This document shows positions 29,095 through 55,433 of a DNA stretch of 64,000 bases, one piece after another. The stretch covers positions 186,001 to 250,000 of the forward strand of contig JAJTXY010000001.1 of the NCBI GenBank assembly GCA_021463865.1, given 5' to 3'. The stretch's first letter is position 1; every line of letters begins with the position of its first letter. The DNA comes from Anaerolineae bacterium. Its GTDB lineage: Bacteria; Chloroflexota; Anaerolineae; Aggregatilineales; J027. Below the pieces are notes generated by a model. The model ran no database searches. It was not told where the DNA came from and saw only the letters and a list, made by a program, of their open reading frames with translations. The position numbers and the translations under genes were made by a program.

Positions 29095-31782
29095 CTAACT
29101 TAAATCCGTCCGGCGCTCTTGCAACAGACGGACACGACGCGCCAATAGTTGATGTTCAGGCATGGTTAACAATGGGTCTTCGGCATAGATGGCACGGCTT
29201 TCTTTCTGCGCCAACTCGACCAACTGCACATCCATTGATTGGTCAAATCGCACAGCGCCATAACCCGCCTGACGTGTGCCCAGCAAATCCCCCGGCCCGC
29301 GCAATTGCCAATCGAGTTCGGCCAGCGCAAAGCCATCACTCAGCGTTTCAAATTTGCGGAGGCGTTCGACGGCTTCGGGATTATCTGAATCGCTGATGAG
29401 CAGGCAGAACGATTGATGTTGTCCGCGACCAACCCGCCCCCGGAATTGGTGGAGTTGGGCAAGGCCAAAACGATTTGCACCCTCAATCAAAATGACGGTG
29501 GCGTTGGGCACATCAATACCGACTTCGATGACTGAGGTCGAAATTAAGACCTGAATTTCACCGTGTGCAAAGGCCGCCATGACCTCATCTTTTTCGGATG
29601 GCTTTAGACGCCCGTGCATCAAGCCACAGCGATAGTGCCGGAAAATGGTGGTGCTGAGTTCGTCAAAGGCTTCGACGGCAGAACGGCTCTCACTGTCATC
29701 AGAGGCCTCGACCAACGGATAGACGATAAAGGCTTGGTGGCCCTCTTCCAATTGATGCTTGATGAAACTGTAGGCCCGTTCGCGTTCGGGAGCAAACAGC
29801 AGCTTGGTCTCAATCGGCTGGCGACCCGGTGGCATTTCATCCAACACAGTCAAATCAAGGTCGGCATACATCGTCAGGGCCAGTGTACGCGGGATGGGAG
29901 TAGCAGTCATCACCAAAACATGCGGGTTGGTGCCTTTGCCGCGCAGTGTCCCGCGTTCGTCTACCCCGAAACGATGCTGCTCATCAATGATTGCCAATGC
30001 TAGATTGTTAAATTCGATGCCTTCTTGAATCAGGGCATGAGTGCCGATTACGATCTGTACGCTGCCATTGGCAAGCCCTTCATAAATTTCGCGGCGCTGC
30101 GGTTCGGGGGTGCTGCCTGTCAATAATTGAATATTGACATTCTCGCCACCCGATACCCCCGCGAACAATTTACGAATACCCTGATAATGTTGCTCGGCTA
30201 AAATGCTGGTGGGGGCCATCAATGCAGACTGCTTGCCATTGGCAATCGCTACACCGAGGGCCATCGCCGCGATGACGGTTTTGCCTGAGCCGACATCCCC
30301 CTGTAACAAGCGGTTCATCGGAATGGCTTGAGTTAAATCTTGGCGGATGGCATCAACAGCTTTATGCTGCGCTCCGGTTAATTGATAGGGCAGGCCACCG
30401 AGAAAGGATTGTACCCATTCATCGCTGACGGTCAGCGGGATGCCGGGGACGGATTGCCACACCTGTCGTTTTGCCAAAATCCCCAGTTGCAGCAGCATCA
30501 ATTCATCAAAGGCAAGGCGCTGTTGGGCATATTCCAAAAATTCCCATTTTTGCGGGAGATGGATTTGGCGTAAGGCCCAGCCAAGATCAACCATCTCGGT
30601 GCGTTCCAAGACGCTTTCCGGCATGTAGTCGGGCAGTTTATTGACCCATGTGTCCAAGACCTCGCGCATCAGCTTGCGCACAATTTTGGAGGAGAGGCCC
30701 TGTGTCAGTGGATAGACGGGAATAATGCCACCCTGCTGCAAACTACGTTGGTCTACCAATTCCCATTCTGGGTTGGACATGCTGAGTTCACCCCGGAATA
30801 AATCGGTTTTGCCGTACATGGCAATTTGCATCCCGATTTTTAACATGCGTTTGAGATAGGGCTGGTTGAAAAAGGTGACGTTGATTTTGCCTGCCCCGTC
30901 TTCGACTAGGACACTGATAAAGGGGCGACCCTCGCGGGATTTTAATTCGACGATGCGCTGAATTGTGCCAATGGCCGCCGTTTGTTGATAGGGCTTGAGA
31001 TGGCTGAGGGGCAGCAGGCGGGTGTAGTCGTCATAGCGGCGCGGCATAAAAAACAGCAGGTCGCCTAATGTCGCAATACCTAATCGCGCCAACTGCTCGG
31101 CCCGTTTATCGCCAACCCCCTTCAAATTTTGCACACGGTCATTGAGATGGCCCATCACCTCACGTGCAGCATCAATATCAACCGATTTGCGCGGGGTGCG
31201 GCGCGGCTTGGGAGCACGGGCTTGCGATTTGCGGTCTAATGTGGCTGGGGCGACAAATTCAATCACTTCCAATGAGGAGGTGATGACGTCTTCTTTAAAC
31301 GAACCCTCGTCCTCGTCGTCCTCATCACCATTGTCAAATTTGGATTTGGCGGGTGGGCGCGGCGCGGGTCGCGGGGCAGGTGGCTTTGGTGGCACAGGTG
31401 GTGGGCTTGCCGCAGGTTCAGTCGCCACTGATTTGGATGGAGTAGATGGTGGAGGCGCTGTTTGAGCGGCAGGCGGGGCATCGGGTGAGACCCACTCCGC
31501 TGCGTAGGCTGGATTTTGGGGTGCTCGTCCAGTGATACGTCCCATCATATATTTGATGGACTGCTGACGTTTGTCGCGGTCTTCCAAACTGCCATACTCG
31601 CTCATGACCTTGCCCAGTTCTTCGATCAGGTTATGTTGAGCAGGCGTTTTGGCTTGTTGGTGGGCATCGCGTGACCAGTTGGGAATATAGGATTGCAACC
31701 CACCAATGACTGCCGTGTTTTTATAGCCGGTGTCTTGTTCCAGCCGTAATATTTTGATTAGGGTTTCAAGTGCTGAAGCCAT
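29095..31782 (-). CDS. recG: ATP-dependent DNA helicase RecG with long N-terminal extension
   Basis: 895 residues from ATG at 31780-31782, chosen for its GGAGA site and because the upstream frame runs into the DegV gene. The wedge domain (LFFMPRRYDDYTRL), Walker A (LLQGDVGSGKT), the DEQHRFG box, and FRGRVGRGQHQSFCLL followed by GDLLGTRQAG identify RecG, which reverses stalled replication forks. An added N-terminal segment of about 190 residues precedes the wedge: a helical domain (1-100), then a Pro/Ala-rich linker and an acidic stretch. Typical RecG is near 690 residues. The gene follows the fak genes, as in many Firmicutes. Confidence 0.94.
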   Translation of the reverse strand: MASALETLIKILRLEQDTGYKNTAVIGGLQSYIPNWSRDAHQQAKTPAQHNLIEELGKVMSEYGSLEDRDKRQQSIKYMMGRITGRAPQNPAYAAEWVSPDAPPAAQTAPPPSTPSKSVATEPAASPPPVPPKPPAPRPAPRPPAKSKFDNGDEDDEDEGSFKEDVITSSLEVIEFVAPATLDRKSQARAPKPRRTPRKSVDIDAAREVMGHLNDRVQNLKGVGDKRAEQLARLGIATLGDLLFFMPRRYDDYTRLLPLSHLKPYQQTAAIGTIQRIVELKSREGRPFISVLVEDGAGKINVTFFNQPYLKRMLKIGMQIAMYGKTDLFRGELSMSNPEWELVDQRSLQQGGIIPVYPLTQGLSSKIVRKLMREVLDTWVNKLPDYMPESVLERTEMVDLGWALRQIHLPQKWEFLEYAQQRLAFDELMLLQLGILAKRQVWQSVPGIPLTVSDEWVQSFLGGLPYQLTGAQHKAVDAIRQDLTQAIPMNRLLQGDVGSGKTVIAAMALGVAIANGKQSALMAPTSILAEQHYQGIRKLFAGVSGGENVNIQLLTGSTPEPQRREIYEGLANGSVQIVIGTHALIQEGIEFNNLALAIIDEQHRFGVDERGTLRGKGTNPHVLVMTATPIPRTLALTMYADLDLTVLDEMPPGRQPIETKLLFAPERERAYSFIKHQLEEGHQAFIVYPLVEASDDSESRSAVEAFDELSTTIFRHYRCGLMHGRLKPSEKDEVMAAFAHGEIQVLISTSVIEVGIDVPNATVILIEGANRFGLAQLHQFRGRVGRGQHQSFCLLISDSDNPEAVERLRKFETLSDGFALAELDWQLRGPGDLLGTRQAGYGAVRFDQSMDVQLVELAQKESRAIYAEDPLLTMPEHQLLARRVRLLQERRTDLS

Positions 31783-31795
31783 CTTATCTCCGAAG

Positions 31796-32641
31796 TTATG
31801 CTTTGGCTTTGATAAGGGCCAGCCCAATTCCGTTGGGGCCGACATGTGTGCCAATAACGGGGGTCACGTCTACCATATTGAGATAGGCTTGCGGGGCGAT
31901 GTCTTGCACCAAATCCATGAGCTTTTGTCCACGCTCCGGATTAAAAGAATGCAAGACGGTTAGCCGTTCCAATGGGGCTTCGCGGTGGGCAATATCGGCC
32001 ACTTCGCGGATGGCCTTCTCAAACGTGCGTACCCGTCCAGCGGTGTTGACATCGCCTTCGCGCACGTCAATAATCGGTTTGATTTGGAGAAGTGTCCCGA
32101 CGTTTGCTTGTGCCCATCCTACACGACCACTGCGCCGCAAATATTCGAGGGTATCTAATACGGCATATAAACGTGCCCGTGAACGCATTTCGCTGATGAG
32201 AGCCTTAATATCCTCGACGGGTGCCCCTTTTTCGGCGGATTCAGCGGCAGCAATCGCCATCCAACCCTGCGCCATCGTCAAGGTACCGCTATCAATCACG
32301 GTGATTTTCTCCGGTGAAACTTCGTTGGCGGCGACCACCATCCCGTTATAGATGCCGCTGAGTTTGCTGGCAACCGAAAACGCGATTACATGGTCGGCAT
32401 CAGCAAGGGCCTCTTGGAAAATTTTAGCTCCCATGCCGGGGGGGGGAGCGGCTGTCGTCGGTAATTCAGTGGCTTGGGCAAGGCGCTTGTAAAAGTCTTG
32501 GCGCGACAGGGAGACGCCATCGTCGGGAAAACTTTGGTCGCCGAAATTCACATAGTCTGGGACAATGCGAATGTCATGTTTTTTCGCTAGGTCGGACGGG
32601 ATGTCTGCCGCGCTGTCCACCACGATTTTGATTTTGCTCAC
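31796..32641 (-). CDS. DegV family fatty-acid-binding protein (FakB type), copy 1
   Basis: 281 residues. The start IKIVVDSAADIPSDLAKKHDI and the block TTAAPPPGMGAKIF (the usual TSQPS-like loop) identify the DegV fold, which binds one acyl chain and presents it to FakA for phosphorylation. The C-terminal GTHVGPNGIGLALI motif is typical. It overlaps the second DegV gene by 4 bases and is 13 bases from recG. Confidence 0.9.
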   Translation of the reverse strand: MSKIKIVVDSAADIPSDLAKKHDIRIVPDYVNFGDQSFPDDGVSLSRQDFYKRLAQATELPTTAAPPPGMGAKIFQEALADADHVIAFSVASKLSGIYNGMVVAANEVSPEKITVIDSGTLTMAQGWMAIAAAESAEKGAPVEDIKALISEMRSRARLYAVLDTLEYLRRSGRVGWAQANVGTLLQIKPIIDVREGDVNTAGRVRTFEKAIREVADIAHREAPLERLTVLHSFNPERGQKLMDLVQDIAPQAYLNMVDVTPVIGTHVGPNGIGLALIKAKA

Positions 32642-33507
32642 GCGATTATATCCTCTTCTTCGCCTTCCAAAATGACCAGCCCCGTTGCATCACCGCCCAG
32701 CAAACTGCCAATGGAAGGATCATATAACATGGTGGGGAAATCTTGCCCCTGCAATTCCAGTGCGAGACGGTCTTGCAGCATCCGAACGGGTTCGGTTAAT
32801 GTGGTCGTGTGTGTCAACAGGGCCATCTGGTCAATACTGGCGAATTCCATCGCAAATTCGGCTAATTTTTCAACTGCTTGGGCATGGGTGCGGGCTTTTT
32901 CCATAATCATCAACTGCCCTTCCTCAATGGTGAGAAACGGCATGATGCCCAACATCGTCCCCAGAATCGTTTGGGCTGCGCCGATAAAGCCCTGTTCACG
33001 GATCATGTTCATTTTTTCGACATAAAAGACGGCATAGATACGTGGGATGGTGCGTCGAACCAAGCGCACGATGTCTTCTAAGTCATCGGCTTCACTGGCG
33101 ATTTGACCGGTTTTATCTACCAGCATCCCCAACCCGGCGGAGATGGTTTGCGAGTCTACTACTTCAATATCACAACGCCCCAACAGCATTTGGCTGGCGG
33201 TCTTGGCGTTATGGCAGACATGCCCCAATCGAGCCGAAAGATGCAAGGAGATGATTTGATTGACATCCCGATTGAGCCACTTGTAGACCTCTAAAAATTC
33301 TTCTGGTGTCGGTGGGATCAACTTCGGGATGACATTCTCACGTTGGATGCGCCGTAAAAATTCCTCCGCCCCAATGTCGAAGCCAAGCCGATAGGTGGTT
33401 TCACCTATTTGCAGGCGCAGCGGAACCACCGTAACCTCATAACGTTTGACGATGGTGGGGTCAATAAAAAGGGCTGAACTATCGGTGACGATACGTACCT
33501 TATTCAA
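32638..33507 (-). CDS. DegV family fatty-acid-binding protein (FakB type), copy 2
   Basis: 289 residues, begins VRIVTDSSALFIDPTIVKRYEV and has the LIPPTPEEFLEVY loop in place of the usual TSQPS motif. The C-terminal acyl-binding signature GTHxGPG seen in copy 1 is replaced by MLYDPSIGSLLGGDATGLVI, so it may prefer a different lipid or has diverged. It is translationally coupled to copy 1 and lies 24 bases after fakA, which it probably serves. Confidence 0.85.
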   Translation of the reverse strand: MNKVRIVTDSSALFIDPTIVKRYEVTVVPLRLQIGETTYRLGFDIGAEEFLRRIQRENVIPKLIPPTPEEFLEVYKWLNRDVNQIISLHLSARLGHVCHNAKTASQMLLGRCDIEVVDSQTISAGLGMLVDKTGQIASEADDLEDIVRLVRRTIPRIYAVFYVEKMNMIREQGFIGAAQTILGTMLGIMPFLTIEEGQLMIMEKARTHAQAVEKLAEFAMEFASIDQMALLTHTTTLTEPVRMLQDRLALELQGQDFPTMLYDPSIGSLLGGDATGLVILEGEEEDIIA

Positions 33508-33531
33508 GGTTGCTTTTTCCTGAGAGTGCCG

Positions 33532-35223
33532 CTATTCCACACTGAATATTACCTGATAATGCGGCTGTCCCCCATACACAGTTTCAAATTCCAAATGGGG
33601 GTAGGCGTCGGCGAGGGTATCGGATAAATTTCGCACTTCACTTTCGTGTAGCGAGTCACCATAATAGAGAGTAATCAGTTCCATAGTGTCTAGATCATCA
33701 ATGGCAGCTAGTAAGCCACGCATGGCATCCCCGACTGAATCTCCTGAGAATCGGAGTTTACCATTCAACAGGCCGATAATTTGGCCCTCTTTGACCTTGA
33801 CCCCATCCAATTCAACAGAACGGGTAGCCGTTGTGACTTCACCTGTGAACACCTTGTCTTTGGCTTTGGTCATGGCTGCTGCTACATCCGCCAAATTTCC
33901 ATTGGGTTGATAGGGCAGCATGGCGCTAACCCCTTCGGTAAAGGAACGAGTTGGCACTACCACACACTGCTTGTCGGAGATCAGTTTGGCAGCTTGTTCG
34001 GCGGCCAGAATGATATTTTTGTTATTGGGCAGGATGATTATTTTGTCGGTGTTGATTTTGCCAATCGCCTTGAGGATTTCTTCGGTGCTGGGGTTGTTGG
34101 TTTGCCCACCGTTAACTAGGCCCGCGACGCCTAGTTGTTGAAATACACCTGCTAATCCATCGCCAGCGACGACGGCTACCACCCCAATCTGGCCGGGTTC
34201 GACGGCGGTCAGTTCTAGATCATCTACACTAAAGGATTTTTCTTGCTCGGTGCGCTTTTTGAGATATTCCTCATACTGCACCTGCATATTTTCGACCACA
34301 ACATCTAGGAGAACACCGAGATTCGCGCCGTAGTGGAGGGGGTGGCCGGGATTATGGACATGCACATGGACTTTGACGGCGGTGTCATTCCCCACGACGA
34401 CCACCGAATCACCCATACTCTCCATCGCGGCTTTGATCACATCAGGATTTAGACCCTCGCCTTTGATGACAAACTGCACATCATAGCCATAACCTAATTC
34501 GCCGGGATCAAGCACTTCGGCCAAATTATGTTCTTCGTGATCTAATTCAGCGTCGGTGGGGATGGCTTGGCCTTCAATCTGAACGCTCTGACCCTTTAAG
34601 TGGCGCAGCATCCCTTCAAGGATATAGACCAATCCCACCCCCCCTGAATCTACGACACCAGCCTCTTTCAAGCGGGGTAGAAGATTTGGCGTGTTCTCGA
34701 CTGATACCCACCCGCGAGCCACCATTTTTTCAAGTAGTTCCTGTAAATTGGGTGTCGTGGCAACCTGCGCCTCGGCTTCTTCGGTCATCTCTCTGGCGAC
34801 GGTCAAAATTGTGCCTTCTACCGGACGCTGGACACCACGATAGGCCATATCGGTTGCCATGCGCAGGGCTGCTACCATTTGGGGAGCATCAAAAGTTTCG
34901 GTGTCACCGAGGGACTGGGCAAACCCTTTCCATAACTGTGACATGATGGTTCCAGAATTACCGCGTGATCCCATCATTGCTCCATAGGCGATTTTCTGGG
35001 CAACTTTGCCTACATGGGTGGAATTTTCATGGGTGACTTCATTACAGGCATTCCGCATGGTCAACAGCATATTTGTTCCTGTATCCCCATCTGGAACCGG
35101 GAATACATTGAGTTCATTGACTTGGCGGTAATGGCTTTCTAACCAATGGAGGCCAGCATTTGCCAAAGACTTAAGTTGATGCCCATCACACGTCAGATTA
35201 AATTGCGCTGTTTGTTCAGTCAT
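33532..35223 (-). CDS. fakA: Fatty acid kinase subunit A (DhaL-YloV family)
   Basis: 563 residues. Residues about 5-205 are the DhaL-type kinase domain; VFPVPDGDTGTNMLLTM holds the Asp residues that bind Mg-ATP. The rest is the YloV middle and DegV-like C-terminal domains. FakA phosphorylates fatty acids bound to FakB, feeding exogenous acyl groups into phospholipid synthesis through PlsX/PlsY. Two FakB-type genes follow directly. The asp23-fakA-recG order is as in Firmicutes. Confidence 0.93.
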   Translation of the reverse strand: MTEQTAQFNLTCDGHQLKSLANAGLHWLESHYRQVNELNVFPVPDGDTGTNMLLTMRNACNEVTHENSTHVGKVAQKIAYGAMMGSRGNSGTIMSQLWKGFAQSLGDTETFDAPQMVAALRMATDMAYRGVQRPVEGTILTVAREMTEEAEAQVATTPNLQELLEKMVARGWVSVENTPNLLPRLKEAGVVDSGGVGLVYILEGMLRHLKGQSVQIEGQAIPTDAELDHEEHNLAEVLDPGELGYGYDVQFVIKGEGLNPDVIKAAMESMGDSVVVVGNDTAVKVHVHVHNPGHPLHYGANLGVLLDVVVENMQVQYEEYLKKRTEQEKSFSVDDLELTAVEPGQIGVVAVVAGDGLAGVFQQLGVAGLVNGGQTNNPSTEEILKAIGKINTDKIIILPNNKNIILAAEQAAKLISDKQCVVVPTRSFTEGVSAMLPYQPNGNLADVAAAMTKAKDKVFTGEVTTATRSVELDGVKVKEGQIIGLLNGKLRFSGDSVGDAMRGLLAAIDDLDTMELITLYYGDSLHESEVRNLSDTLADAYPHLEFETVYGGQPHYQVIFSVE

Positions 35224-35240
35224 AACACTTCCGAAAAATC

Positions 35241-35615
35241 CTACGATGATTTACTGGCCTTTGGTTGTTGGCTGATGCGAAGGCCCTGCACATGGACATT
35301 GACACTCTTTACAGGCATGGTGGTATTTTGTTCGATGACATAACGCACGCTGTTGATAATGCTGGATGAAACGCTGGCAATGCGAATGCCATGTTCCAAG
35401 ATCACATAAATATCAATAGCGATCTCGTTATCCTCGATTTGGATTGCCACCCCTCGGTGCGGATCACGGGTCAACGTAGCAGCAACACCCGACGTCCGGT
35501 TGGCGGTTGCCATGCTGACAACCCCATATGTCTGGGTAACGGTATGGCTGACCAAACTGGCAATCGCGGTTGGCGAAATTTCAATTATTCCATGAACGTT
35601 CTCTTTTGTCGTCAT
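35241..35615 (-). CDS. Asp23/Gls24 family envelope protein
   Basis: 124 residues. The start GIIEISPTAIASLVSHTVTQTYGVV and later VRYVIEQNTTMPVKSVNVHVQGL are the family hallmarks. These proteins associate with the membrane envelope. The gene begins the minus-strand fak operon, 17 bases from fakA, divergent from rpmB. Confidence 0.92.
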   Translation of the reverse strand: MTTKENVHGIIEISPTAIASLVSHTVTQTYGVVSMATANRTSGVAATLTRDPHRGVAIQIEDNEIAIDIYVILEHGIRIASVSSSIINSVRYVIEQNTTMPVKSVNVHVQGLRISQQPKASKSS

Positions 35616-36909: not shown

Positions 36910-39063
36910 TTGGTTAAGCACATGACAACATTTTCTGGCTTGGAACTCCCAAACCCCAACACAACTTCTGGCTCCTCTTCATCAGGAAATCCATTCGATA
37001 TTGCCACCACGCAATTATCCCAGATTATGTCTCGTTTGCCGGGGATTATGTGGACGACGGATAGGAATTTGGTTATTACCCGTATAAGCGGCGCGGGCCT
37101 GAAACTGCTGAATCGCAGCCCGCAAGAATATATTGGGCGCAATTTGGCCGAGATTGTTGACTCGCAGCAACTTTCGTCTATTGCAGTCTCAGAGCACCAA
37201 AAAGCTCTGGCTGGCAAAGTGGGGCATTACGAAATCGCCGTAGATCAACGTCAACTTGAAGTGACCGTGCAATCGTTGTTGGATGAACAAGGCCAAACCA
37301 TTGGCTGTGTGGCGCTGGCCGTTGATATTACCAATCAAAAAGAAGCCGAACGTGCGCTGGCCTATATTTCTGACCGCATGATCTTGCTTAATCGGGTGAT
37401 TTCGTTGGCAGGTTCGACTCTCAATGTCAATAAGGTGCTGGAAGTGGCGTGTCAGGAATTGGCCCAAACATTTGGTGTGCCCCAAGTTGCGGCTGCCCTT
37501 TTTGATGAGAACCAGATCGAGGGCCGTATTGTTGCGGAATATCTTGCCCCCGGTTGTATTTCGGCGATGGGGATGACATTTCCTTTACGGGATAATCCCC
37601 TCAATGAAGACCTCATTCAGTTCAAAAATCCGATTGCGATTACGGATGTCATGACCGACCCGCTAACCGTGCAGGTGCGATCCATCATGCAAGAGCGGAA
37701 AACGGCCTCGATTCTGATAGTGCCTCTAACCGTAAGGGGAGAGGTGATTGGATCCATTGGGATTGATTCGCCTGTCGCGCGGGAATTTACCCAAGATGAA
37801 ATTGAACTGGCCGCCGCCGTCGCTTTATCGGTGTCGCAGGCTTTGGACAACGGAATGCTGCATCAGCAGTTGGAATCGCACAATGAGCGACTGGCTCAGT
37901 TGGTCGAAAAACGCACTGCCGAATTGCAGCGGGTTAATGAGCGCATGACCGCCATTTTAAACGGCAGTAGTGACGCGATTATCTTTACCCACAATGATGG
38001 CACGATTCGTAATACCAATGAGGCTTTTGACCGATTATTCGGTTATGCACCGGACGAAGCCTTTAGTTCTCCTATTGAAATTTTGGCCGAACCTCCCTTT
38101 GACCAACCACTGATCGAGGCGCTTAGAACGGCGGTTCAGACGGGTGAGCCACAGCGCCTTACCATTATTGCTCGCCGCCGCGATAACTCCACCTTTGACG
38201 CTGACGTTGCGCTTTCTTCTGTGCCGGAAACAGATCAGGTAGCCGGGGGTACGGTATGCAGCCTGCGTGATATCACCCAATTGAAAGAGGTGGAGCGCCT
38301 CAAGGATCGTTTTGTTTCGACAGTTAGCCACGAGTTACGCACACCTATCACAGGTATTCTGTTGGGAGCTAACAGTCTGCATCAACATTATCCCCGTTTA
38401 AGTGATACGCAACGCCTCGAAATTATCCGCCGCCTTCTCGATCAATCTGCTTCATTGGCCGAACTGATTGAGGGGATTCTTTCGTTGTCGCGGTTTGATT
38501 TGCAGAAGCATCGCACAGAAGCCGTTCGGGTAGATATGGTGGAATCTGTTGTATCTATTGTGGAGGAGTTTCGACTTACCATCCAAAACAAACGGCTGAC
38601 CCTCGAGCTTACCAAACCGACCATGCCTGCCTATGTACGTGGATCACGCCTCGATTTTTCGCGGATATGGCGCAATTTAATTGATAACGCGATCAAATAT
38701 ACCCCTGAGGGAAAAGTTTTAGTGGTGTTGAAGACTGTTGATACTACGTCCGGGCCCGTGCCGGATGATCTTAAACCACAGGATCTACCCGCTGGACGTT
38801 ACGTTGTGGGCCAAGTGTCCGATAGCGGGCGGGGTATTCCGGCGAACGATATGACACATTTGTTTACGCGGTTTTATCGTGGCAATGCGTCGCAAAGTAA
38901 TATTCCCGGCAGTGGGCTGGGATTATCCTTAGTCAAAGAAATCGTGACCTTTTATAAAGGATCAATTACCGTAAGAAGTGAAGCGGGCGTTGGAAGCACC
39001 TTTACCTTTTGGCTGCCTGCGGACACAGCGGATGTTACTGACACGGAGGAACCACCGGTATGA
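36910..39063 (+). CDS. Soluble sensor histidine kinase (PAS-GAF-PAS-HisKA-HATPase)
   Basis: 717 residues without a membrane segment. In order: a PAS domain (about 35-155), a GAF domain (about 170-320) and a coiled-coil linker (LVEKRTAELQRVNERM), then a second PAS (about 350-465), the phospho-acceptor region (STVSHELRTPITG) and the ATPase (NLIDNAIKY, DSGRGIP, GSGLGLSLVKE). It must sense a cytoplasmic cue. The start may be TTG at 36910 (AGGAG 4 bases before) or ATG at 36922. Its stop overlaps the next gene (ATGA), so the receiver-kinase downstream is a likely partner. Confidence 0.93.
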   Translation: MVKHMTTFSGLELPNPNTTSGSSSSGNPFDIATTQLSQIMSRLPGIMWTTDRNLVITRISGAGLKLLNRSPQEYIGRNLAEIVDSQQLSSIAVSEHQKALAGKVGHYEIAVDQRQLEVTVQSLLDEQGQTIGCVALAVDITNQKEAERALAYISDRMILLNRVISLAGSTLNVNKVLEVACQELAQTFGVPQVAAALFDENQIEGRIVAEYLAPGCISAMGMTFPLRDNPLNEDLIQFKNPIAITDVMTDPLTVQVRSIMQERKTASILIVPLTVRGEVIGSIGIDSPVAREFTQDEIELAAAVALSVSQALDNGMLHQQLESHNERLAQLVEKRTAELQRVNERMTAILNGSSDAIIFTHNDGTIRNTNEAFDRLFGYAPDEAFSSPIEILAEPPFDQPLIEALRTAVQTGEPQRLTIIARRRDNSTFDADVALSSVPETDQVAGGTVCSLRDITQLKEVERLKDRFVSTVSHELRTPITGILLGANSLHQHYPRLSDTQRLEIIRRLLDQSASLAELIEGILSLSRFDLQKHRTEAVRVDMVESVVSIVEEFRLTIQNKRLTLELTKPTMPAYVRGSRLDFSRIWRNLIDNAIKYTPEGKVLVVLKTVDTTSGPVPDDLKPQDLPAGRYVVGQVSDSGRGIPANDMTHLFTRFYRGNASQSNIPGSGLGLSLVKEIVTFYKGSITVRSEAGVGSTFTFWLPADTADVTDTEEPPV

Positions 39064-40169
39064 CCAAAGTGATGATTGTTGAAGATACCCGGCCCTTGTT
39101 GGAGGGTATCGCGTTTGAACTCGAAATGCGGGGCTATGAAGTATTGACCGCCCCCGATGGACTGGCGGCCCTCAAGGTCTTGGATGATTTAGAGAATAAC
39201 GGACTGCCGGATGTGATTGTCAGTGATATTGCGATGCCCAATTTGGACGGCTATCAATTATTCGAGCGTGTCCAAGCCAATGAGGACTGGCAGGCGATCC
39301 CTTTCATTTTTTTGACGGCACTGGCCTCCGAAAAAGATATTCAATATGGCAAGCGTCTTGGGGCCGATGATTATCTAATTAAGCCCTTTAAGCCTGAAGA
39401 ATTAGTGATTGCCATTGAAAATAAGAAGCGTCGTTTTGAGCAGCTAAAAGCAAGCAGCGAACGCAAATTGGATGTGGTACGGCAGCAGTTAATGGCAATG
39501 ATTTCGCACGAACTGCGGACACCGCTCACCGCGATCTATGGTGGGGCCGAGCTTTTGGCAGATGATTTTGCGCTGGATGAAGATGATATTTCCAAACAGG
39601 CCCTTGAACTCATCCAATCGGGGGCGCGACGCCTCAACCGCCTTGTTAATGAAGTGTTATGGCTAGTCCAATTTAACAGTGGGCATCTTCAGCAGACGTT
39701 TGACACGATGGCGCGGTCTTACGACCTACAGGAGATTTTGCAGACGGCGCGTGAAGTTTTGAACTTTGAAGTGGCAACGGATCGGATAGTATTTTATCAG
39801 AATCAAGATGATGCGGCGCTGTGGGTAAATGGACTACGGGATGTACTGGTAATGATTTTTATGGAAGCCTTCCACAATGCGCTGCGTTTTTCTCAAGATA
39901 ATACACCGGTTGACCTTACTCTTCAGGTCGAGGGCAATCAGGTGACAATTGAACTGACCGATTATGGTAGTGGGATTGCTGCTGGGGACATTGATAAGGT
40001 CTGGGAACCCTTTGTGCAGTCGGATCGCCGTACTCATGAACAGCAAGGCATGGGTCTAGGATTAACCCTTATCCGCGAAGGCGTTCGGCTGCACGGCGGT
40101 GATTGCAAGTTATACAGTGAACTCAATAAAGGGACGATGTTGGTCGTCCAACTCCCGCTCGCTAAATAG
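39060..40169 (+). CDS. Response regulator receiver-histidine kinase fusion, copy 1
   Basis: 369 residues. An N-terminal receiver has the phospho-acceptor Asp56 (SDIAMP) and the conserved Lys108. A helical linker leads to the HisKA box with His150 (SHELRTPLTA) and an ATPase domain (GSGIAAGD, GMGLGLTLIREG). Receiver-first kinases usually take phosphate or an allosteric signal from another kinase and pass it on. It is co-transcribed with the PAS/GAF kinase before it. The histidine-kinase ATPase lacks a clear N-box Asn-Asn pattern, having FHNALRF instead. Confidence 0.92.
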   Translation: MTKVMIVEDTRPLLEGIAFELEMRGYEVLTAPDGLAALKVLDDLENNGLPDVIVSDIAMPNLDGYQLFERVQANEDWQAIPFIFLTALASEKDIQYGKRLGADDYLIKPFKPEELVIAIENKKRRFEQLKASSERKLDVVRQQLMAMISHELRTPLTAIYGGAELLADDFALDEDDISKQALELIQSGARRLNRLVNEVLWLVQFNSGHLQQTFDTMARSYDLQEILQTAREVLNFEVATDRIVFYQNQDDAALWVNGLRDVLVMIFMEAFHNALRFSQDNTPVDLTLQVEGNQVTIELTDYGSGIAAGDIDKVWEPFVQSDRRTHEQQGMGLGLTLIREGVRLHGGDCKLYSELNKGTMLVVQLPLAK

Positions 40170-40192
40170 TTGATAAGGCATACGACAATTTT

Positions 40193-41311
40193 ATGGCACG
40201 TATCCTCATTGCCGAAGACAACCAGAACTTGGTCTATCAGCTTCAAATTGAACTCACTATGCAAGGCTATGAAGTCAGTTGTGCGCTCGATGGGGTAGAG
40301 GCATTGGATCGGTTAAAAAACGAAGCTTTGCCTGACCTCATTATCAGCGATGTTAGTATGCCCAACATGGACGGCTTTGAGTTTTATGCAGCAGTACGCA
40401 GCAACTCGGCGTGGGTGGATATTCCCTTTATCTTTTTGACCGCACGTGACAGCGATGCTGATAAAGATATGGGCTATGGATTGGGAGCGGATGATTATAT
40501 TGTCAAGCCTTTCCAAACTGACCATCTGCTGCGGGTCATTACGGGTAAGCTGAAGCGCCGTCAGATGTTGCAAGCTTCATTCGATGAACAGCGCACGGCA
40601 CTTGAACGAGTGAAGAAGGAACTTACCCAAATGGTTGCCCACGAACTCCGCACGCCATTGGTATCTATTAATTTGGTGCTACAAATTATCTCGCGGCAAA
40701 TGGGTCAGCTTTCTGAGTCCCAACTTCAAGAGTTATTGGATACGATGAGTGCAGGCAGTAACCGCCTGAATCGGCTAACCGACCAGATGGTTTTCCTCAC
40801 CCAACTGGAAGCAGGGGCATTAAACAAACAGGATATTTTGGAATCCGGCTTTCCGATTCATATTAGCGACATTATGACCCTAGCGATCAACCGCGCCCGC
40901 TTATTTGCCTATCGCCAACCCAATATTTCGGTAAACCTTGACGAGCGCGACCACCAGATCAAGGTGATGTGTGATAAGCGTGCCCTAGAACATGCGCTGG
41001 CCGAAGTGATTTCTAACGCCATGATATTTTCGCCACCGGATGGAGCCATCGAAGTCAGTCAGTGGAAGGCAAATGGGCGCGGGTGGATTAGTATAACCGA
41101 TCATGGCAGTGGGATGACCCCTGAGCAAGTCACTCAGGCCATGCAGAGATTCCAACAGGTCAACCGCGAATCCCAAGAACAACAGGGAGTCGGTTTGGGC
41201 CTGCCATTGGCAATCAACATCATCGAAGCACACGGCGGCAACCTCGACATCAAATCCGTGCTTGGCAAGGGAACACAAGTCATCATTGATCTACCCCTCA
41301 TCACATCATAG
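40193..41311 (+). CDS. Response regulator receiver-histidine kinase fusion, copy 2
   Basis: 372 residues, a close architectural paralogue of the preceding gene. The receiver Asp is 53 (SDVSMP) with Lys105; the HisKA His is again residue 150 (AHELRTPLVS); the ATPase has VISNAMIFSPP and GVGLGLPLAIN. It is 23 bases after copy 1. No DNA-binding regulator lies nearby, so the output is either a distant regulator or another kinase. Confidence 0.92.
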   Translation: MARILIAEDNQNLVYQLQIELTMQGYEVSCALDGVEALDRLKNEALPDLIISDVSMPNMDGFEFYAAVRSNSAWVDIPFIFLTARDSDADKDMGYGLGADDYIVKPFQTDHLLRVITGKLKRRQMLQASFDEQRTALERVKKELTQMVAHELRTPLVSINLVLQIISRQMGQLSESQLQELLDTMSAGSNRLNRLTDQMVFLTQLEAGALNKQDILESGFPIHISDIMTLAINRARLFAYRQPNISVNLDERDHQIKVMCDKRALEHALAEVISNAMIFSPPDGAIEVSQWKANGRGWISITDHGSGMTPEQVTQAMQRFQQVNRESQEQQGVGLGLPLAINIIEAHGGNLDIKSVLGKGTQVIIDLPLITS

Positions 41312-41341
41312 TCCACTTGATTAGTTGTCTAGTGACTTTTT
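41310..41341 (+). terminator. Weak terminator after the kinase operon
   Basis: AGTCCACT (41310-41317) pairs with AGTGACT (41331-41337) with one bulged base, followed by a T run. It overlaps the kinase stop codon. Confidence 0.4.
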
Positions 41342-41424
41342 GTACTGTTAGGTGAAATCCAGCTTGGGTAAACATTAGATGGGGGATAGAAAACAATTGT
41401 AGATCAGCACTCAAAGGAATCCTA

Positions 41425-42978
41425 ATGCCTCGTAATGATCCGCGTATTCTTGAACTTCGTGCATTACGCGAAAAATCCAGACAAGGTGGCGGTGTCCAGC
41501 GTATCGAGAAGCAGCATCAGAAAGGCAAAATGACCGCCCGTGAACGGTTGAGTTTGCTGCTTGACCCCGGCACATTTAATGAACTTGAACCCTTCATTAC
41601 CCATCAGGGCCAACCAGCGCAGTCACCGGAAGAAAAATATCTTGGCGAGGGTGTGGTCACGGGTTACGGTCAAATTGAGGGGCGCACGGTGTATGTGTAT
41701 GCCCAAGATTTTACGATTTTTGGCGGTACGCTCAGTGAAATGCAGAGCCACAAAATCTGTCGTGTGATGGATTTGGCGCTACGCAACGGGGTACCTATCA
41801 TCGGGCTGATTGATTCCGGTGGCGCTCGTATCCAAGATGGGGTCAGTAGCCTTGCTGGATATGCCGAAATTTTCCGCCGCAACGCCCAATATTCAGGTGT
41901 CATCCCCCAAATTAGCCTAATGCTTGGGCCGTGCGCGGGTGGAGCGGCCTATTCCCCGGCGCTGACAGACATTCTGATTATGGTCGAAAACACCTCGTTC
42001 ATGTTTCTAACTGGGCCTGAAGTAATTAAAACCGTGACGGGCGAGGTGATAGATGCAGAGCAGTTGGGGGGTGCCTATACCCATACGGCGGTGAGCGGGG
42101 TGGCGCATCTGGCAACTCCATCTGAAAATGCGGCCCTTGCAATGTGCCGCCGGGTCTTGAGCTATCTGCCTTCCAATAATGTCGAAAATCCGCCCTATTA
42201 CCCGCCCCAAGATGACCCGCTGCGGATGGAATCCCGGTTGAATGAAATTGTCCCGCTCGATTCTACGACGCCCTATCATATGCACGAGGTTATTGACCTG
42301 ATTGTGGACGAACGGTCATTCCTAGAACTGCAACCGCATTGGGGACAAAATGCCATTACCGGATTTGCCCGGATTGGTGGACACAGTGTTGGGATTGTGG
42401 CGCAAGAACCAACCAGCATGGCCGGGGTGATTGATATTGATGCGTCCGACAAAATGACCCGCTTTGTGCGGATGTGTGACTGCTTCAATGTCCCAATCGT
42501 GACTTTTGTGGATTCGCCCGGATTTTTGCCGGGGGTGGATCAAGAACATCGCGGCATTATCCGGCATGGCGCGAAACTGCTCTATGGCTATTCCGAAGCG
42601 ACAGTCCCCAAGATTTGCGTGATTACCCGTAAAGCCTATGGCGGGGCCTATGTGGTGATGAGCAGCAAATATTTGGGCACGGACATCACCTATGCGTGGC
42701 CGAGTGCCGAAGTTGCGGTGATGGGGCCAGAAGGGGCGGTTGGGATTATCTATAAAAGCCAGATCGAAAAGGCTGCCGACCCTGCCGCCGAACGTCAGCG
42801 CCTATTGGATGAGTATCGCCGCAAATGGAATAACCCGTATCAAGCAGCCGGGGCTGGTTATGTGGATGATGTCATCGAGCCGTCCGAAACGCGCCCCAAA
42901 ATCATTGCCGCCCTTGCCGCTCTGCGGGATAAATACGCTCCTAATCCGCCGCGCAAACATGGCAATATGCCCGTTTAG
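41425..42978 (+). CDS. mmdA: Methylmalonyl-CoA decarboxylase alpha (carboxyltransferase) subunit
   Basis: 517 residues of the acyl-CoA carboxylase beta/carboxyltransferase family: the start RNDPRILELRALREKSRQGGG, MTARERLSLLLDPGTF, GLIDSGGARIQDGV, GPCAGGAAYSPALTD, and in the second half VDSPGFLPGVDQEHRGIIRHGAKLL-type sequence followed by YGGAYVVM. It could be the beta subunit of propionyl-CoA carboxylase, but the genes directly after it encode the gamma, biotin and beta subunits of a sodium-pumping decarboxylase, so a methylmalonyl-CoA decarboxylase alpha subunit is the better reading. Confidence 0.88.
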   Translation: MPRNDPRILELRALREKSRQGGGVQRIEKQHQKGKMTARERLSLLLDPGTFNELEPFITHQGQPAQSPEEKYLGEGVVTGYGQIEGRTVYVYAQDFTIFGGTLSEMQSHKICRVMDLALRNGVPIIGLIDSGGARIQDGVSSLAGYAEIFRRNAQYSGVIPQISLMLGPCAGGAAYSPALTDILIMVENTSFMFLTGPEVIKTVTGEVIDAEQLGGAYTHTAVSGVAHLATPSENAALAMCRRVLSYLPSNNVENPPYYPPQDDPLRMESRLNEIVPLDSTTPYHMHEVIDLIVDERSFLELQPHWGQNAITGFARIGGHSVGIVAQEPTSMAGVIDIDASDKMTRFVRMCDCFNVPIVTFVDSPGFLPGVDQEHRGIIRHGAKLLYGYSEATVPKICVITRKAYGGAYVVMSSKYLGTDITYAWPSAEVAVMGPEGAVGIIYKSQIEKAADPAAERQRLLDEYRRKWNNPYQAAGAGYVDDVIEPSETRPKIIAALAALRDKYAPNPPRKHGNMPV

Positions 42979-42996
42979 TCGAGGGGATGATACATA

Positions 42997-43326
42997 ATGG
43001 CTGAAAATCTTTCGACAGCCCTACAAATCACGGTGATTGGTATGGGGTTGGTCTTTGGGGGAATTCTGATTTTGTGGGGACTGATGTCTGTATTGCTCAG
43101 GCTAACCACGCCTAAAGATGTGACAACCGAAGTTCCCTCTACGGGTGACGCTGACGAGGCCTATGTACAAAAACGTCGGGTGGCTGCACTGGCGGTTGCC
43201 ATCGCGTTGGCCCACGAGCGTGATCAGCAAAAGCCTCAACCATTCCCAATGCCGCCAACTGCAATTGTTAGCGCATGGCAGGCAGTCATGCGCACCAATC
43301 AATTAAGACGCCGAGGGACGCGATGA
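42997..43326 (+). CDS. mmdD: Decarboxylase gamma/delta chain (OadG family)
   Basis: 109 residues with one N-terminal membrane helix (VIGMGLVFGGILILWGLM) followed by a charged tail; this is the OadG layout. It anchors the carboxyltransferase to the membrane beta subunit. It lies 18 bases after the alpha subunit, and its stop overlaps the biotin-protein start (ATGA). Confidence 0.85.
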   Translation: MAENLSTALQITVIGMGLVFGGILILWGLMSVLLRLTTPKDVTTEVPSTGDADEAYVQKRRVAALAVAIALAHERDQQKPQPFPMPPTAIVSAWQAVMRTNQLRRRGTR

Positions 43327-43760
43327 AGTATCGAATGACGGTCAATGACCAAACCTATGAAGTTGAAATTATAGATTTACACGCCTCTCCTGTATTGGTT
43401 ACGGTAGATGGCGAGCGTTTTGAGGTACTGCCGGAAATGGTCGAGTTGGAAATTGCCCGACCTGCCCCTAAGCCCGTTAATCCTCAACCGCGTGCCACTC
43501 CTACCAACGGGGGGAGTTCAACCCCACGTAATCCGAATGCGATTGCCGCACCGATTCCCGGTGTGATTGTCTCGATTGCGGTGAAGGTGGGGGAGGTTAT
43601 CAGTGTGGGCCAAGAGGTGTGTATCTTGGAAGCCATGAAGATGAAAAATGTCATTCGGGCCAACCGCGCCGGACGTATTGAGGACATCAAGGTGAGTGTC
43701 GGCCAACAGGTCAGACACAGCGATGTCTTGATGACGGTTGGGACGGAGGTGGCTCTGTGA
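43323..43760 (+). CDS. mmdC: Biotin carboxyl carrier subunit of the decarboxylase
   Basis: 145 residues from ATG at 43323 overlapping the gamma-chain stop. The N-terminal half (MKYRMTVNDQTYEVEI) is typical of decarboxylase biotin subunits. A Pro-rich linker precedes a lipoyl/biotinyl domain with EAMKMKN, whose central Lys is biotinylated. It carries carboxyl from the alpha to the beta subunit. Its stop overlaps the next start (GTGA). Confidence 0.93.
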   Translation: MKYRMTVNDQTYEVEIIDLHASPVLVTVDGERFEVLPEMVELEIARPAPKPVNPQPRATPTNGGSSTPRNPNAIAAPIPGVIVSIAVKVGEVISVGQEVCILEAMKMKNVIRANRAGRIEDIKVSVGQQVRHSDVLMTVGTEVAL

Positions 43761-44884
43761 ATTATGCCGAGTTATGGGACGAACTAAGCAAGGGGATTAC
43801 CCATTTCACGGCGGGCAATGTCGTGATGATGGCGGTTGGCGGCATTTTGATTGCGCTGGCCGTCCTCAAAGAATACGAACCAGTGCTGCTGCTGCCGATT
43901 GGTTTTGGTTGTGTCTTGGCAAATATGCCCCTGACTGGCATGAACGAGGCCGATGGATTGTTCGGGGTGTTATACGACGCGGGGATCAAAACCGAGTTAT
44001 TTCCCCTACTGATTTTTATTGGCGTAGGGGCGATGATTGATTTCAGTCCACTGCTGGCAATGCCGCGCATGGTTTTATTGGGGGCGGCGGGTCAATTTGG
44101 GATTTTTGGCACGCTCATTTTGGCGACCCTCTTGGGTTTTTCGATTAACGAAGCGGCTTCAATTGGCGTCATTGGCGCGATTGACGGCCCAACCTCGATT
44201 TTTGTAGCAACCAAACTTGCGCCGAATTTACTGGCCCCGATTGCAGTCGCCGCCTATTCATATATGAGCCTGATTCCAATCATCCAACCACCGCTGATCC
44301 GTTTACTGACTACTTCTGAAGAGCGTCGGATTCGGATGACATATACACCGCGCCCGGTTTCGCCGCGCACGCTGGTGTTGTTTCCGGTTGCCGTGACGGT
44401 AGTCGTCGGTTTGCTGGTGCCGGATGCCACCCCCTTGATCAGCATGTTGATGTTGGGCAATCTGCTGCGCGAAAGCCATGTGGTGGATCGGCTGAACAAG
44501 GCTGCCCAAAATGAACTGATTAACATTGCCACGCTGTTTTTGGGGATCACGATTGGTTCGACGATGGTGGCCTCCAAATTCCTTGAAGTGGATACGCTGC
44601 TGATTTTAGTGTTGGGTCTACTGGCCTTTGTGCTGGATACAGTGGCAGGGCTACTGTTTGGTAAAGCCCTTTCGCGGGTGACGGGGGGTAAGATTAACCC
44701 CATCATCGGCGCGGCGGGGATTAGTGCTTTCCCGATGGCGGGACGGTTGGCGGCCCAGATTGCACAGGAAGAAGATTACGAAAACTTCATTCTGATGCAC
44801 GCGATGGGTGCAAACACGGCTGGTCAATTGGGCAGCGTGATGGCTGGCGGTATCTTGTTAGCGCTGGTCACAGGTGTTTTGTAG
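43757..44884 (+). CDS. mmdB: Sodium-pumping decarboxylase beta subunit (OadB/MmdB family)
   Basis: 375 residues with about ten membrane segments, starting GTG. Family blocks are FIGVGAMIDFSPLL, VIGAIDGPTSIF (retaining the key Asp of the DGPT motif) and the C-terminal NPIIGAAGISAFPMAGR and HAMGANTAGQLGSV. This subunit decarboxylates carboxybiotin and moves sodium outward. The gene order alpha, gamma, biotin, beta matches the Veillonella methylmalonyl-CoA decarboxylase operon apart from the small epsilon subunit, which I do not see. Confidence 0.93.
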   Translation: MNYAELWDELSKGITHFTAGNVVMMAVGGILIALAVLKEYEPVLLLPIGFGCVLANMPLTGMNEADGLFGVLYDAGIKTELFPLLIFIGVGAMIDFSPLLAMPRMVLLGAAGQFGIFGTLILATLLGFSINEAASIGVIGAIDGPTSIFVATKLAPNLLAPIAVAAYSYMSLIPIIQPPLIRLLTTSEERRIRMTYTPRPVSPRTLVLFPVAVTVVVGLLVPDATPLISMLMLGNLLRESHVVDRLNKAAQNELINIATLFLGITIGSTMVASKFLEVDTLLILVLGLLAFVLDTVAGLLFGKALSRVTGGKINPIIGAAGISAFPMAGRLAAQIAQEEDYENFILMHAMGANTAGQLGSVMAGGILLALVTGVL

Positions 44885-53804: not shown

Positions 53805-55433
53805 TTACTCCATTAAATCGCTCCATGTCGAAGCCGATTTTTTGGGTTGGTGGGTTTCTTCTGTTTGCACACCTAAGCGTGCGGCAAAACGTGTCTCACT
53901 GGGCAGGGGGGCAAGGCGGCGAATGGTAGCGCGGGCGGTATCCTGCTGCTGGGCCGACATCGGACGGGTCTCTTCATCCACTGGAATCAAAACACTGATT
54001 TTAGTACCCTTGCCTTTGGTACTTTCAATATGCAGGGCAGCATCAATCAGTTCGGCCCGTTCGCGCATATTGACCATGCCGAGGCTGCCACGCTGATAAT
54101 AATTGGCATTGACTACGGCTTCGACATCAAACCCGGCACCGTCGTCCTCAATTTCAGCAATGATATAGTCGTTGCTTTGCTGAAAGAGGCGAATCCAAAT
54201 GTTTCTAGCCTTCGCATGTTTTAGGGCGTTATTGGCCGCTTCTTCGACTACGTAAAACAACACCCCTTGTACATTGGTTTCCAACCAGACTTCCAACTGT
54301 TCGTCGGCTTCAACGGTAAATTGGGTGGGATGCTGATCCTCCAACTTTTTCGCCAACTCTTTGAGGGCCGCTACCAAACCTTGTGTTTCCAGCACCAGTG
54401 GGCGCAGGGTAAAGAGCATATGGCGGATTTCTTTGGTGGTCTTGGTCGCCATCTCGCCCACTTTTTGCAATTCTTCAAATACGGCTGGGAACTGCTTATT
54501 TTTCAGCATTTTTTGGATAAGGTCAACCCGAGTAGCGATCATGGCAACGGTCTGAGTCGGGCCGTCATGTAAATCGCGGGCCAGTTTTTTGCGGGCATCT
54601 TCTTCAATTGAGACAATACGCTCTTTTTCATCCAGCAGGTTTTGATACAGCACCGCATTTTGCAGAGCGATGGTGGCTTGGGTGGCGATAGCGGTCAGTA
54701 AGGCGATTGAACCGGGGGAGAAAGCGTTGGGTTGTTCGCTACCAAAGACCATCACACCAAAATTTTCAAATCCGGCCCGGAGTGGCACTGCCATGACGGA
54801 ATTTGTCCCCTGAAACGCGACAAAAAAGCGCAATTCGGGGTCTTGGGTCGCATTTTTGCCCATAACAGGTTCGGCTTTTTTGAGGGCTTCCCCCAGAATG
54901 CCATCCCGTCCTTGCAAACGAACTTTTTCGTCCACACGGGTCAAGCGACGTGCCGCCGCGACGTGCATCATATTGTCATCTTTGCGGAATAGTAGAATGG
55001 CGCTAATCAAGCGGGCTGTTTCCGAAGCGCCGAGTTCACGCAGTCCAAGAGCGCCAATTTCAAGCGATGCTTCTAAAACACGGTGGTAATCAAGCGTGGA
55101 ACTGAGAGTCGAGGAAAGTTCATAAATCGCTTTGGCACGCTGTTGGGCATTGCGGAGCCGCTGCGTCTCGATTTCCATCTGTTGGGCGGCCTGCGCCGAT
55201 AATTTTGACCGTGTGACTCCCCAGATCAAGCCGCCGATGCTGAGGATTAGGCCAATCAGCGCAACCACAACGGCCAATCCACTCCCAAGTATCAATAACA
55301 CGCCAAAACCAACGGCGGCTATCATCCACAAGGGGCGGTTGGGGTCATTTTTGGCAAGTGAAGCCAAATGAGACGGAGGGGTGTTTTTTTCTGTCATGCT
55401 ACTTAAGGTGCTTTTGGCCTTTATAGACTCCAC
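53805..55433 (-). CDS. Membrane sensor histidine kinase, NarX/DegS type, with GAF domain
   Basis: 542 residues. Two membrane helices near the N terminus (about 35-70) are followed by a helical linker, a GAF domain (about 115-275), the HisKA_3 box KLARDLHDGPTQTV with the phospho-acceptor His, and an ATPase with EEAANNALKHA and GMVNMRERAE. Such kinases act with LuxR/NarL-type regulators; none is adjacent. The start may be GTG at 55433 or ATG at 55397. Confidence 0.9.
   Translation of the reverse strand: MESIKAKSTLSSMTEKNTPPSHLASLAKNDPNRPLWMIAAVGFGVLLILGSGLAVVVALIGLILSIGGLIWGVTRSKLSAQAAQQMEIETQRLRNAQQRAKAIYELSSTLSSTLDYHRVLEASLEIGALGLRELGASETARLISAILLFRKDDNMMHVAAARRLTRVDEKVRLQGRDGILGEALKKAEPVMGKNATQDPELRFFVAFQGTNSVMAVPLRAGFENFGVMVFGSEQPNAFSPGSIALLTAIATQATIALQNAVLYQNLLDEKERIVSIEEDARKKLARDLHDGPTQTVAMIATRVDLIQKMLKNKQFPAVFEELQKVGEMATKTTKEIRHMLFTLRPLVLETQGLVAALKELAKKLEDQHPTQFTVEADEQLEVWLETNVQGVLFYVVEEAANNALKHAKARNIWIRLFQQSNDYIIAEIEDDGAGFDVEAVVNANYYQRGSLGMVNMRERAELIDAALHIESTKGKGTKISVLIPVDEETRPMSAQQQDTARATIRRLAPLPSETRFAARLGVQTEETHQPKKSASTWSDLME

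Follow-up and report, generated by a model that had tools for sequence, protein, structure and literature searches.

Histidine kinases whose catalytic core follows an N-terminal receiver (Rec-controlled histidine kinases, Rec-HKs) are already known as a kind, with LvrB of Leptospira and NmpS of Myxococcus xanthus as described members. According to the available parts of the published accounts, LvrA phosphorylates LvrB and increases its autokinase activity (PMC5863495), phosphorylation of the LvrB receiver brings the signalling helices together as a coiled coil and releases the catalytic domains (PMC13269768), and branched flow is the model published for the Lvr system (PMC5863495). NmpU, in the corresponding accounts, phosphorylates the receiver of NmpS (PMC6211767), which has been proposed to switch NmpS off, unlike LvrB (PMC6211767, PMC11841059). 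Here we describe three consecutive kinase genes, encoding the proteins P0001, P0002 and P0003, at positions 36910 to 41311 (+ strand) of a 64-kb stretch of the genome of an Anaerolineae bacterium (Chloroflexota), the whole of which is called the window below. The set looks like a genuine, conserved case of a known type of relay between kinases, in which the relay kinases number two and an output gene does not adjoin. No publication on this Chloroflexota operon was found in the searches made of the open-licence literature.

Architecture and conservation of the three kinase genes

The first gene (36910..39063, + strand) encodes the sensor histidine kinase P0001, which has 717 aa when counted from the TTG at 36910; an alternative ATG start lies four codons further on, at 36922, and the first start position is ATG in one genome of the same genus. 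Pfam assigns it the order PAS-GAF-PAS-HisKA-HATPase, with a sensory part (37048..38286, +) made of PAS (aa 47-141), GAF (174-312) and PAS (350-459) domains and a kinase core made of HisKA (465-530) and HATPase (581-705), and the motif SHELRTP places the phospho-acceptor at His474 (38329..38331, +). The second gene (39060..40169, +), which overlaps the first by the 4 nt ATGA (39060..39063, +), encodes P0002, a protein of 369 aa with Response_reg (4-119), HisKA (141-205) and HATPase (261-368) domains. The third (40193..41311, +) begins after a gap of 23 nt and encodes P0003, 372 aa long and built in the same way (Response_reg 4-116, HisKA 141-208, HATPase 261-369). All Pfam domains of the three proteins exceed their curated cut-offs, and the mean pLDDT of the AlphaFold models is 89.5 for P0002 and 91.3 for P0003. 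The spacing of the genes suggests that all three are co-transcribed.

The same tandem, in unchanged order, is present in four other genomes (G001-G004), which are all the other genomes of the genus given by the relatives search, with protein identities of 79-98% (79-96% for P0001); therefore, the arrangement is more than a chance one. A previous sequence-only reading of this DNA had described three coupled kinase genes, and the reading frames, the Pfam domains and the gene order in relatives bear this description out.

In both P0002 and P0003 an N-terminal REC domain is followed directly by the dimerisation and histidine phosphotransfer (DHp) and catalytic and ATP-binding (CA) domains, with no sensory domain between them, and the position of the receivers (residues 4-119 and 4-116) differs from that in classical hybrid kinases, where the receiver lies C-terminal to the kinase core. 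Judged by architecture, P0002 and P0003 are Rec-HKs. The receiver residues required for phosphorylation are all present (E8/D9, D56, T86 and K108 in P0002; E8/D9, D53, T83 and K105 in P0003), the phospho-acceptor Asp56 of P0002 (39225..39227, +) being invariant in the 34 rows of alignment A3 and Asp53 of P0003 (40349..40351, +) in the 17 rows of alignment A1. Inactive receivers, which the sequence-only reading had named as a ground for giving up its proposal, were thus not found at the sequence level. The G-boxes are whole in all three proteins, and in both fusions the motif HELRTP carries the phospho-acceptor His150 (39507..39509, + in P0002; 40640..40642, + in P0003), so that domains and motif positions agree with the earlier statement that both are receiver-first with the histidine at residue 150. 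The shared number is partly a coincidence, given that the receiver of P0002 is three residues longer and the spacings differ. In the AlphaFold monomers the last receiver helix, alpha-5, and the His-bearing DHp helix are predicted to form a single helix (residues 112-168 in P0002 and 109-169 in P0003), whose portion ahead of the histidine comprises aa 112-149 in P0002 (39393..39506, +; spacing from Lys108 to His150 of 42) and aa 109-149 in P0003 (40517..40639, +; spacing from Lys105 to His150 of 45).

The spacing from the KP motif to the histidine has been described, in the available text of the source, as preferentially a multiple of seven in Rec-HKs (PMC13269768). The spacing of P0002 fits and that of P0003 departs from what is a preference and not a strict rule; among 232 measurable Rec-HKs, 144 have a spacing of 42 and 14 one of 45. 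P0002 and its copies in the four other genomes of the genus account for five rows with an apparent spacing of 39; a second KP follows in them, and the true value is 42. As a candidate for a compact signature, the E-Q-Q-G seen before the G2 box in alignment A1 was dropped as not general, being found in 102 of 286 Rec-HKs.

A recent tandem duplication as the origin of P0002 and P0003 was rejected, because the two share 33% identity, each is closer to proteins from outside the genus (best identity 43% for P0002 and 48% for P0003), and a branch supported at 98/93 separates them in a 51-row tree. In the same tree a clade of 11 rows with a spacing of 42 forms the sister group (93/92) of P0003 with its genus copies; six members of that clade lie directly behind a sensor kinase gene. 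Two clades with a spacing of 45, mostly solo genes, are more distant from P0003. Linker phase and pairing may be linked, though P0003 itself has a spacing of 45 and is paired.

Proposed relay from the sensor kinase and competing routes

The reading that we consider likely is a relay from a sensor kinase to Rec-HKs, of the Lvr/Nmp kind. P0001 would read an intracellular cue through its PAS-GAF-PAS part and autophosphorylate on His474, and the phosphoryl group would pass to Asp56 of P0002 and probably also to Asp53 of P0003. By analogy with LvrB, receiver phosphorylation would alter receiver dimerisation, the change would run along the predicted continuous alpha-5/DHp helix, and this in turn would set the autokinase activity of each Rec-HK; P0002 and P0003 would then phosphorylate at least one regulator whose gene lies elsewhere in the genome. 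The sign of control, that is activation as for LvrB or inhibition as for NmpS, cannot be read from the sequence.

Gene order among Rec-HKs is consistent with such a donor. We gathered 286 distinct compact Rec-HKs, those of the window included, from relatives in the order, named species and a sample of the phylum, through similarity to P0002 and P0003 or through alignments containing them; the best 80 of 579 matches were used, 400 genomes were drawn from the phylum, the matches to fetch were picked by hand, and the counts, which were taken from domain-based frames because the greedy gene calls contain antisense artefacts, describe that sample and not all Rec-HKs. In 99 of 274 testable cases a histidine kinase (HK) gene is found on the same strand no more than 100 nt upstream (51/156 among the order relatives, 25/64 among the named species and 23/54 in the phylum sample), a conservative limit, since L096 and L098, with a sensor kinase slightly farther upstream, were scored as solo. 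The direction of this association was examined for the 89 Rec-HKs that have 2.5 kb or more of sequence on each side, and distances were taken to the start of the downstream gene and to the end of the upstream one. The direct upstream neighbour is a kinase lacking an N-terminal receiver in 24 of them, the direct downstream neighbour in two; the numbers for receiver-first kinases are 12 upstream and 11 downstream. When 4.5 kb was needed downstream the plain kinases numbered 22 against 2 of 80, and 20 against 2 of 81 without the four other same-genus loci. Within the sample, therefore, Rec-HK genes tend to sit just behind the gene of a plain sensor kinase and seldom just before it, which offers a simple rule to predict which kinase phosphorylates a Rec-HK. 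Hosts of directly paired Rec-HKs include Thermoflexales bacterium (L131), Kapabacteria bacterium (L133), Ignavibacteriae bacterium (L135), Segetibacter (L165) and Opitutae bacterium (L136); tandem Rec-HK pairs number 11, five of which come from the window and from the corresponding operons of the same genus, and three frames fuse the sensor to the Rec-HK (HisKA-HATPase-REC-HisKA-HATPase). In one relative a chain of four kinases was observed, comprising an HK, a receiver-first sensor HK some 1080 aa long and two Rec-HKs (L090, G019:C61, 8065-14293, - strand).

Covariation was computed between the DHp domain of the upstream kinase and the receiver interface, at positions that we took to form that interface. 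The signal was z 2.6 with n=58 and z 2.95 in an enlarged test with 90 upstream-kinase/receiver pairs, where one of 500 shuffles was as high; that run left out 10 pairs with no HisKA match in the upstream kinase and 27 Rec-HKs with no recognisable His motif (own-DHp tests). Between the receiver and its own DHp domain no covariation was seen, either at these positions (z -0.29 for 83 of these proteins and -1.13 for all 259) or at the published rewiring positions of HK853/RR468 (z 0.17 and -1.80). The interface residues of HK853/RR468 were taken from PDB titles among the Foldseek matches, and we presume that their numbering maps onto P0002 as we placed it. Covariation hints weakly that the upstream kinase, and not the protein's own kinase, may be the phosphate donor. 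The proposal of the sequence-only reading that phosphate could pass from the first kinase to the receivers is consistent with the anatomy of the proteins, the gene order in relatives, the precedents of LvrA-LvrB and NmpU-NmpS and, weakly, this covariation.

Several observations weigh against the relay. The covariation signal was not significant against random position sets with n=58 (fraction 0.06) or with n=90 (fraction 0.07 for random and 0.13 for slid sets), and when the latter test was confined to its 69 plain HisKA-HATPase upstream kinases, z dropped to 1.61 (28 of 500 shuffles). At the HK853/RR468 positions it was z 1.18 (128 of 1000 shuffles as high) and z 1.16 without the genus of the window; the 74 upstream kinases lacking an N-terminal receiver gave z 2.06 (23/1000), and shuffling within clusters gave values as high in 28 of 1000. 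Of the 274 testable Rec-HKs, 175 lack an HK gene in the 100 nt upstream, which indicates that Rec-HKs also work, or find partners, without a linked sensor, and eight relatives of P0003 with a spacing of 45 (L092, L099, L100, L101, L103, L104, L105 and L106) are solo. The TM-scores between the P0002 model and LvrB are only 0.38/0.37 (rmsd 21.8), so that the overall placing of the domains in the monomer model may differ from that of LvrB. Finally, no output partner was identified.

Other routes for the phosphate have to be weighed against a transfer from P0001 to both receivers. In a serial cascade, which is possible although on balance doubtful, P0001 would phosphorylate the receiver of P0002 only, the kinase of P0002 would phosphorylate the receiver of P0003, and P0003 would be the terminal kinase. 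The gene order fits this as well, longer chains such as that of L090, with an HK, a receiver-first sensor HK and two Rec-HKs, occur in relatives, and P0003 has other DHp specificity residues (VSLVI) than P0001 (TGLGS) and P0002 (TAGGL). However, the top Lvr kinase can reach both receivers, as stated in the available text (PMC5863495), and the two receivers resemble each other in their alpha-1 specificity residues about as much as their overall identity predicts (0.43, with a background mean of 0.38), which favours neither model. It is quite improbable that phosphate is instead exchanged within each Rec-HK, between its His150 and its receiver, in the way of classical hybrid kinases, with P0001 belonging to a separate pathway: although receiver and kinase share one polypeptide with intact residues, covariation between the receiver and its own DHp domain is absent, the receiver of P0002 precedes an unbroken helix predicted to start 38 residues before His150, HK genes are found preferentially directly upstream of Rec-HKs, and NmpS, in the available account, leaves its own receiver unphosphorylated (PMC6211767).

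One of the two Rec-HKs might also serve as a phosphate sink or as a phosphatase modulating the other branch, in the manner of NmpT, an unlikely role for which some points speak. The threonine at H+4 in HELRTP would permit phosphatase activity. The gene of NmpT lies between nmpU and nmpS and its product is described, in the available text, as a likely sink (PMC6211767, PMC11841059), yet NmpT is a receiver-only protein and the ATPase domains of P0002 and P0003 both keep the conserved Asn and two glycine-rich boxes. Within the preferred relay from P0001, the two Rec-HKs could conceivably be of opposite sign, because their spacings of 42 and 45 differ by three residues, about half a heptad; they also belong to separate lineages with differing DHp specificity residues. 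We regard such a push-pull splitter, in which one sensor drives both kinases and two different regulators are fed, as hardly likely, but if it were true the same receiver phosphorylation could activate one kinase in the manner of LvrB and inhibit the other in the manner of NmpS. The operon provides a three-protein set on which branched against serial transfer and linker phase could be tested in vitro.

Output regulators and neighbouring genes

No receiver or DNA-binding domain was detected by Pfam (E 1e-4) in 20 flanking proteins scanned between 27876 and 56508, a RecG-like frame (29095-31854) being left out; 17 of these proteins have Pfam families and three have none. The earlier statement that no DNA-binding regulator is nearby holds as far as these 20 proteins, and the receivers of P0002 and P0003 are the sole Response_reg matches in the window. 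Across the whole genome, 4.9 Mb in 59 contigs, Response_reg gives 109 matches, and 43 of the 104 receivers above the cut-off lie at least 2.5 kb from any above-cut-off HATPase on the same contig. Thirteen of these 43 are in frames of 190-330 aa, five of which carry a Trans_reg_C domain, and 37 of 88 HATPase matches have no receiver within 2.5 kb; contig ends may conceal some neighbours in all of these counts. The five Trans_reg_C regulators are of the OmpR type and lie at C24:14179, C56:127510, C59:40828, C34:138414 and C23:21499 of this genome (G000). Unlinked outputs are therefore ordinary in this genome. Because the lack of a linked regulator is not special here, the branched hub postulated by the sequence-only reading goes beyond the evidence in its second word: branching is possible and agrees with the published Lvr model, the sequence does not separate branched from serial flow, and a signalling hub is plausible but ordinary in kind.

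Downstream of the kinase genes, the intergenic region 41312-41424 separates them from a carboxyltransferase/OAD gamma/biotin/OAD beta cluster (41425-44884). The region is conserved in the five genomes of the genus that were compared, and one conserved block reads AGTGACTTTTTGTACTGTT. It is perhaps the promoter of this sodium-pump-like decarboxylase cluster and, if so, the kinase operon ends at 41311. A scan for promoters and terminators gave counts close to those of shuffled sequences (11 against 12.0 promoter-like and 13 against 10.7 terminator-like sites) and was not used, and a PHROGs scan added nothing. Elsewhere in the window, a GAF-HisKA_3-HATPase kinase (53805-55433, - strand) likewise has no receiver gene near it, and two adjacent, differing DegV genes lie with FakA-like (Dak2) and Asp23 genes in a fatty-acid-kinase-like module (31796-35615, - strand).

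Comparison with known systems

Receiver-first kinases have been found in other settings, AsgA and AsgD being further examples. We presume that Hik41 of Synechocystis is close to the present proteins in domain order and in receiving phosphate from Hik16. For the Hik16-Hik41-Rre17 system, the available text lists a single regulator in the same pathway as two kinases, of which one is soluble (PMC3264485). Archaeal REC-(PAS)n-HisK proteins also bear an N-terminal receiver on a histidine kinase, but with PAS/GAF domains between receiver and kinase; they have been proposed as intermediates of phosphorylation cascades or as intracellular sensors, and none is reported as experimentally characterised in the available part of that source (PMC5847659).

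The Nmp system (NmpU, NmpT, NmpS and NmpR) likewise has a soluble sensor kinase and a Rec-HK in the same likely operon, with the output regulator in another operon, as far as the available accounts go (PMC6211767, PMC11841059). It differs in its protoglobin sensor and in having one Rec-HK and a two-receiver sink, in place of the PAS-GAF-PAS sensor and two Rec-HKs found here.

The Lvr system (LvrA, LvrB and LvrC) is encoded in one operon and has the same string of domains, sensor-DHp-CA / REC-DHp-CA / REC-DHp-CA, and its kinases, like P0001 to P0003, carry no DNA-binding domain in the published description available. Ranked by E-value, LvrB, described as a protein of 382 aa with Asp56 and His161, also comes first among the Foldseek matches of the P0002 model (8vc9, 9.9e-22, 396 columns). 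Membership of the LvrA family in a strict sense does not extend to P0002, given that it scores 126.4 bits with model NF047465 against a cut-off of 1200 (P0003, 99.3 bits). An LvrC-like Rec-Bergerat anti-sigma partner was not identified in a HATPase_c_2 search of the same genome, in which the one match read was that at C8:41059; this candidate, L394 (G000:C8, 724-2538), was dropped, reading by eye as REC-HisKA_3-HATPase followed by a NarL-like regulator. On that reading L394 would in itself be a Rec-HK of another DHp type with a linked regulator. According to the available Lvr descriptions, the sensor and the first Rec-HK are fused as LvrA and the sensor part is PAS, whereas here the sensor is PAS-GAF-PAS and the genes are separate, three instead of two. 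The domain string of Lvr, in other words, is found in a second phylum too, there spread over three genes.

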